A stretch of DNA of 64,000 bases, taken from contig JAUXWS010000095.1 of NCBI GenBank assembly GCA_030685015.1, forward strand, positions 1 to 64,000. The letters are read 5' to 3'. The DNA is from a bacterium (GTDB lineage Bacteria > CAIWAD01). The position numbers and the translations under genes are program-made. Of this stretch, positions 35,386 to 36,447 are shown piece by piece. Below the pieces are notes generated by a model, which saw nothing but the letters and a program-made list of their open reading frames with translations, was not told the DNA's origin and did not search any database. The first letter of the stretch is position 1; each line of letters starts with the position of its first letter.

Positions 35386-36060
35386 GGGGATGTCCAAGTG
35401 CTTGTGGGTCCGCGCCTTCGAGGCATCGACCTGTTTCCGCCACAAGGTAGCAGATGGGAGCGCCCGGACGAGGGCCTGGTGAGCGCGGACAGGGCGTCAA
35501 CCGGTCCCATGCCGGGAAGGCGGACGCTACGACGCCTGACCTGTCCGGCCCCGCTCCCATCACCGGCACCCCTTCGTCCATGGGGGCCTGCAGCTGTCGG
35601 ACCTGCCCGCTGGGCTCTTCACTCCATCCCACTCGGCCCGCTCTGCGCAGCGCTCGGACACATGCCACCATGTCTCGCTGCGAAAAGTCCACGAATCCCA
35701 TCTCGACCTGGGCGCGACGTCCAGCAAAGGCCCAGGCCCGATTGGCGGCAGAGGATTGTCATGCCGAATTCCGAAATGATGGTGTCTCCCTCCCACCACC
35801 CCCCTCCCGCCCGGGGCCAATGCTGGTTGCTCTCAAAAGATCCCTGAACACGCTGCCATTTTCGCGGAAAGGAGGAAGCCCGTGAGAAAAAGCTGTCGAA
35901 GGCCGCCCCTCCCCGCCCTTGCACCCCTCATCGTCAACAACTTCTGACTGGCACAGCCCCCTGTCCGGCATGGGCCAGCCGTGGCAGGACTTTGCCCCGG
36001 CTTCACCATGTTTCCAGCAGCCGATTGCGATGAGCCCAGGCAAATGGAGGAGTCGAGACC
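35386..36060. other. Long intergenic region with a possible 21-residue leader ORF
   Basis: About 675 bp separate divergent tex and the selenoprotein gene. No convincing full gene is seen in either strand. One short frame stands out: GTG 35882 to TGA 35947 encodes VRKSCRRPPLPALAPLIVNN and a final Phe, and is preceded by a strong AAAGGAGGAAGCCC site. It may be a leader peptide or chance. The thioredoxin gene's own ribosome site GGAGGAG lies at 36046-36052. The promoters of both flanking genes should be here. Confidence 0.4.
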
Positions 36061-36447
36061 ATGCGCTTCCTGAAAAAGCTGATCGGCCTGGACGGCCGCC
36101 CGGACGAGCTGCGCGACGGCATGCTGGAGCTGGTGGTTGAACAGGAAAGCAGGCCCGTCATCGCCGAGTTCTATTCCAACACGTGAAGCGGCTGTCGGAC
36201 CGTGTCCGGTCTGCTTTACCAACTGCGCGACGACTTCCCCGACCGCCTGCGCCTGGCGCGGGCCAATGCCCAGACCAACGGCGGCACGGTCAGCCAGTTC
36301 AAGGTGCGTGGCACGCCCACCGTCCTTCTCTTCCACAAGGGGCGACTGCTCAAGCGCTGGAGCGGACAGGTCGACCTCGACGAGCTTTACGCCCAGGTGG
36401 AGGGGCTGGTGGCGGCGGGTGACAACGAAGCCAAGGGCGGGCGGTAG
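36061..36447 (+). CDS. Thioredoxin-like selenoprotein (UGA = Sec42)
   Basis: A 128-residue thioredoxin-fold protein if the in-frame TGA at 36184-36186 is read as selenocysteine. The active site reads EFYSNT-Sec-SGCRTV, aligning residue by residue with the usual EFYATWCGPCR, so the UGA replaces exactly the first catalytic Cys, giving a UxxC redox centre. Downstream in the same frame is the cis-Pro loop VRGTPTVLLFHKG and a normal thioredoxin C-terminus. GGAGGAG lies 8 bp before ATG 36061. A hairpin of SECIS type follows the UGA. Role: thiol-disulfide reduction in the cytoplasm (no signal peptide); partner unknown. Naive gene calling would split it into a 41-residue and an about 80-residue piece. 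Confidence 0.85.
36184..36213 (+). promoter_or_regulatory. Candidate bacterial SECIS element
   Basis: Nine bases after the UGA, CGGACCG (36196-36202) pairs with CGGTCTG (36207-36213), seven pairs with one G-U, around the loop TGTC. The apical loop starts 17 nt after the UGA and has G as its second base, which fits the general bacterial SECIS rules (stem-loop shortly downstream, G near the 5' side of the loop). It would recruit SelB with Sec-tRNA. selA, selB, selC and selD are not in this window. Confidence 0.65.

Follow-up and report, generated by a model that had tools for sequence, protein, structure and literature searches.

A thioredoxin-like gene with an in-frame TGA at its active site, a predicted UxxC selenoprotein of a sparsely sampled bacterial lineage

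The thioredoxin-like gene and its product

The window analysed here, a stretch of 64,000 nucleotides, carries a short open reading frame that starts at the ATG at 36061, ends at the TAG at 36445-36447 and contains a single in-frame TGA between the two. With UGA read as selenocysteine (Sec), the product has 128 residues and the sequence MRFLKKLIGLDGRPDELRDGMLELVVEQESRPVIAEFYSNT-U-SGCRTV...VRGTPTVLLFHKGRLLKRW... The original prediction held that the thioredoxin frame continues intact past the UGA, and this was borne out for the 86 C-terminal residues, which include the second Cys and the GTPTV cis-Pro loop. Features of the locus are collected in Table 1.

Table 1. Features of the thioredoxin-like selenoprotein locus, with positions in the window.
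Feature	Position	Strand	Basis
Shine-Dalgarno-like GGAGG	36046..36050	+	Sequence; 10 nt upstream of the ATG
Predicted thioredoxin-like selenoprotein gene	36061..36447	+	PF00085 match, orthologues with the same TGA, predicted thioredoxin fold
TGA, codon 42, predicted Sec, first position of U-S-G-C	36184..36186	+	Aligned with the Cys of thioredoxin families and the TGT of the G004 orthologue
TGT, codon 45, resolving Cys of UxxC	36193..36195	+	Same in every orthologue
Putative bacterial SECIS hairpin CGGACCG-TGTC-CGGTCTG	36196..36213	+	Kept in G001 and G002; fits the bSECIS model (PMC13188914)
GTPTV codons, cis-Pro loop	36310..36324	+	Residues 84-88; Pro kept in every orthologue

The Pfam Thioredoxin model PF00085 spans the UGA (residues 24-113, E 9.6e-15, 54.9 bits versus a gathering cut-off of 23.5), and alignment with solved thioredoxins places codon 42 in the column of the first Cys of CxxC, in agreement with the position first proposed for the TGA. 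The product thus combines a PF00085 domain with a predicted Sec in the first CxxC position, which at sequence level is the mark of a thioredoxin selenoprotein. The AlphaFold model (five sequences; Cys in place of Sec) has a thioredoxin fold with a mean pLDDT of 77.6 and lower certainty at residues 1-12 and in the active-site loop, and a Foldseek search with this predicted structure returned thioredoxins as the best PDB matches. The score for the classical thioredoxin family TIGR01068 was 48.2 bits versus a curated cut-off of 96.8 and the W-C-G-P-C motif is absent; the active site reads T-U-S-G-C, with the Trp before the motif replaced by Thr (Gly in the G003 orthologue). Since the TIGR01068 score is half its cut-off and no Trp precedes the motif, thioredoxin-like is the correct term. 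No NCBIfam selenoprotein model reached its cut-off; TsoB alone gave a weak match (18.7 bits versus 805).

Conservation of the in-frame TGA

Among 60 genomes searched, the gene was found in all close relatives of the host (G000): two congeners, G002 (74% identity) and G001 (66%), and G003, from a different genus within the family (44%). Codon 42 is TGA in all four species, which represent two genera; the orthologue in G004, which belongs to a different family of the class, reads TGT (Cys) there. Homologues had been expected to carry Cys or UGA at residue 42; three species have UGA and one has Cys. The TGA is one base from both TGC and TGT and the window was drawn from a 105-contig draft assembly, so the TGA could in principle have arisen in the sequencing or assembly of an ordinary thioredoxin with Cys; however, because separate assemblies of three other species have TGA at this codon too, such an error is excluded in practice and we regard its probability as negligible. 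The concern that resequencing might reveal TGC or TGT falls with it.

Past the UGA, dN among the three congeners is 0.19-0.24 versus a dS of 0.45-1.16, and these codons are under purifying selection between the congeners; in comparisons with G003 the ratio is weaker (dN 0.66-0.70, dS 0.74-0.91). This bears on the possibility that the gene is a pseudogene or that the TGA is a true stop, with the downstream part either dead or translated separately from the GTG at 36202, where an open reading frame of 81 aa begins. Purifying selection among the congeners acts on both sides of the UGA, however, the thioredoxin domain crosses it, the TGA is kept in two genera and the product of the GTG start would have neither active-site residue, all of which makes this explanation very unlikely.

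G002 shares the gene order tex - trx - ispDF - queA with the host; in G001 it is conserved on the ispDF-queA side and in G003 on the tex side. A wider orthologue-profile search of 386 genomes, in which just five genomes of the class appeared, the host among them, yielded no further UGA at the motif among the best matches examined; there the motif position is Cys, and the other in-frame stops are either terminal or outside the motif. A scan of genome contigs retrieved just the two congeners known already, and plasmid records contained only ordinary thioredoxins with less than 60% identity.

Selenocysteine machinery and the putative SECIS hairpin

The host genome (3.6 Mb, 97% complete) encodes the Sec machinery, as had been anticipated from the window alone: selA (478.7 bits), selB (291.4 bits, 640 aa) and selD (340.8 bits, interrupted by one in-frame TGA) all score above their curated cut-offs, and ARAGORN identified a tRNA-Sec with the anticodon TCA. 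In the relatives, selA and a UGA-containing selD are present in G001, G002 and G003. G004 (67% complete) has a UGA-containing selD and tRNA-Sec, and selA was not found in this partial genome; tRNA-Sec was not found in the fragmented G002 assembly (91% complete, 280 contigs).

Other selenoprotein genes of the host were sought by family, and at least two more have UGA at known Sec sites. The host selD (G000:C37:12407-13327) carries it within YACSGG-U-AAK and is probably a selenoprotein gene too. A UGA-containing selD was also seen in all four relatives, G004 with its Cys-containing thioredoxin among them. A formate-dehydrogenase-type molybdopterin oxidoreductase gene (G000:C99:31492-32241, - strand), which scores below the TIGR01591 cut-off, has an in-frame UGA in HQARI-U-HSSTVASLAATYGRGAMT and is the probable third selenoprotein gene of the genome. 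We take the HQARI-U-HSST motif to be the Sec site of formate dehydrogenases. A gene of this type with HQARI-U-HSST and an in-frame UGA is also present in G002.

A changed code or read-through, by which UGA would be decoded as another residue such as Trp, is extremely unlikely. We found no point in its support; the ordinary window genes tex, ruvB and queA terminate with UGA, so the genetic code is not simply changed, homologues have Cys rather than Trp at this position and the Sec machinery in the genome is complete. On the sequence evidence, the active-site UGA is almost certainly a selenocysteine codon.

In the bSECIS model, the loop has 3-9 nt with a G in its first two bases, the stem has 4-16 bp, the distance from UGA to the loop is 16-37 nt and the minimum free energy is -7.5 kcal/mol or lower (PMC13188914). 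The hairpin in the window was found as first described, with 7 bp (one of them G-U), the loop TGTC and a start 9 nt past the UGA; its distance of 16 nt from UGA to loop and its energy of about -13 kcal/mol also lie within the model. The hairpins of G001 and G002 are the same except for an A-U in place of the G-U pair, so that the structure agrees with the model in three species. In G003 the best hairpin has a 7-bp stem and a GGT loop that lies 14 nt from the UGA, slightly under the usual 16-37 nt. The selD hairpins in the same genomes have loops of GGT or GGTC at a distance of 17 nt. Codons 47-52 are identical in the three congeners versus 23 of 60 comparable codons in 2-41 and 52-117, a post hoc observation on small numbers. 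A 7-bp stem with a loop G also arises in 4-7% of synonymous recodings, and the folding energy does not stand out; the hairpin is therefore consistent with a SECIS element and by itself not strong evidence for one. The Rfam search gave no match in the locus.

Relation to known selenoproteins and proposed function

A Sec-containing thioredoxin (PF00085, UxxC) is recorded as an experimentally verified selenoprotein (PMC9312934; PMC13188914; Kim et al. 2015). The protein described here shares with it the thioredoxin domain, Sec as the attacking residue, the UxxC motif and the existence of Cys-containing homologues, and the view that the gene is a further example of this already known kind of selenoprotein is well supported. 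Classical TrxA (TIGR01068) has the fold, the position of CxxC and the cis-Pro loop in common with it, but here Sec replaces Cys and the motif lacks its preceding Trp. Other UxxC thioredoxin-like selenoproteins, namely the Thioredoxin_2 thiol:disulfide interchange protein, SaoT and the HUIPC-motif protein (PMC13188914), have a thioredoxin-like fold as well but belong to other domain families. Two features set the protein apart: Thr/Gly-U-Ser/Ala-Gly-Cys replaces the Trp-Cys-Gly-Pro-Cys of the classical context (the verified Sec-thioredoxin being compared by description), and a conserved N-terminal extension, FLKKLIGL..RP.EL.DG, distinguishes it from the verified UxxC thioredoxin, again by description. 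The protein and its orthologues might form a lineage-specific branch of their own among the thioredoxin-like selenoproteins, marked by the T/G-U-S/A-G-C motif and the N-terminal segment, perhaps serving a dedicated substrate and not acting as a general thioredoxin; we consider this rather unlikely.

Judged from sequence, the gene product is very probably a small thioredoxin-like thiol/selenol:disulfide oxidoreductase, probably located in the cytosol, with Sec inserted at residue 42 by means of SelB and the hairpin. What we infer for the actual insertion of Sec, the catalytic cycle, the reductase partner, the substrates and the physiological role is as follows. During translation, SelB with Sec-tRNA-Sec would bind the hairpin immediately 3' of the UGA, and selenocysteine would enter at residue 42, where translation would otherwise terminate. 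The Sec42 selenolate would then attack a substrate disulfide to form a mixed selenenylsulfide, which Cys45 would resolve, and the resulting Se-S bond would be reduced, most likely by a thioredoxin reductase whose gene lies elsewhere in the genome. Catalysis by Sec42 and Cys45 with this reductase is the most likely scheme by analogy with the family, and a thioredoxin reductase gene is present in all five genomes.

The locus documents the use of Sec in a sparsely sampled lineage of bacteria, in which at least three genes probably encode selenoproteins, and provides a clean Sec/Cys pair of one protein within one class. As the Cys-bearing G004 keeps tRNA-Sec and a UGA-containing selD, loss of the Sec trait does not account for the Sec/Cys switch in this protein. 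The Cys orthologue in G004 (G004:C30:12246-12931) adjoins a second, ordinary thioredoxin gene (CAPC) and lies near a pyridine-nucleotide disulfide reductase-like gene, a neighbourhood that suggests a thioredoxin-system cluster.
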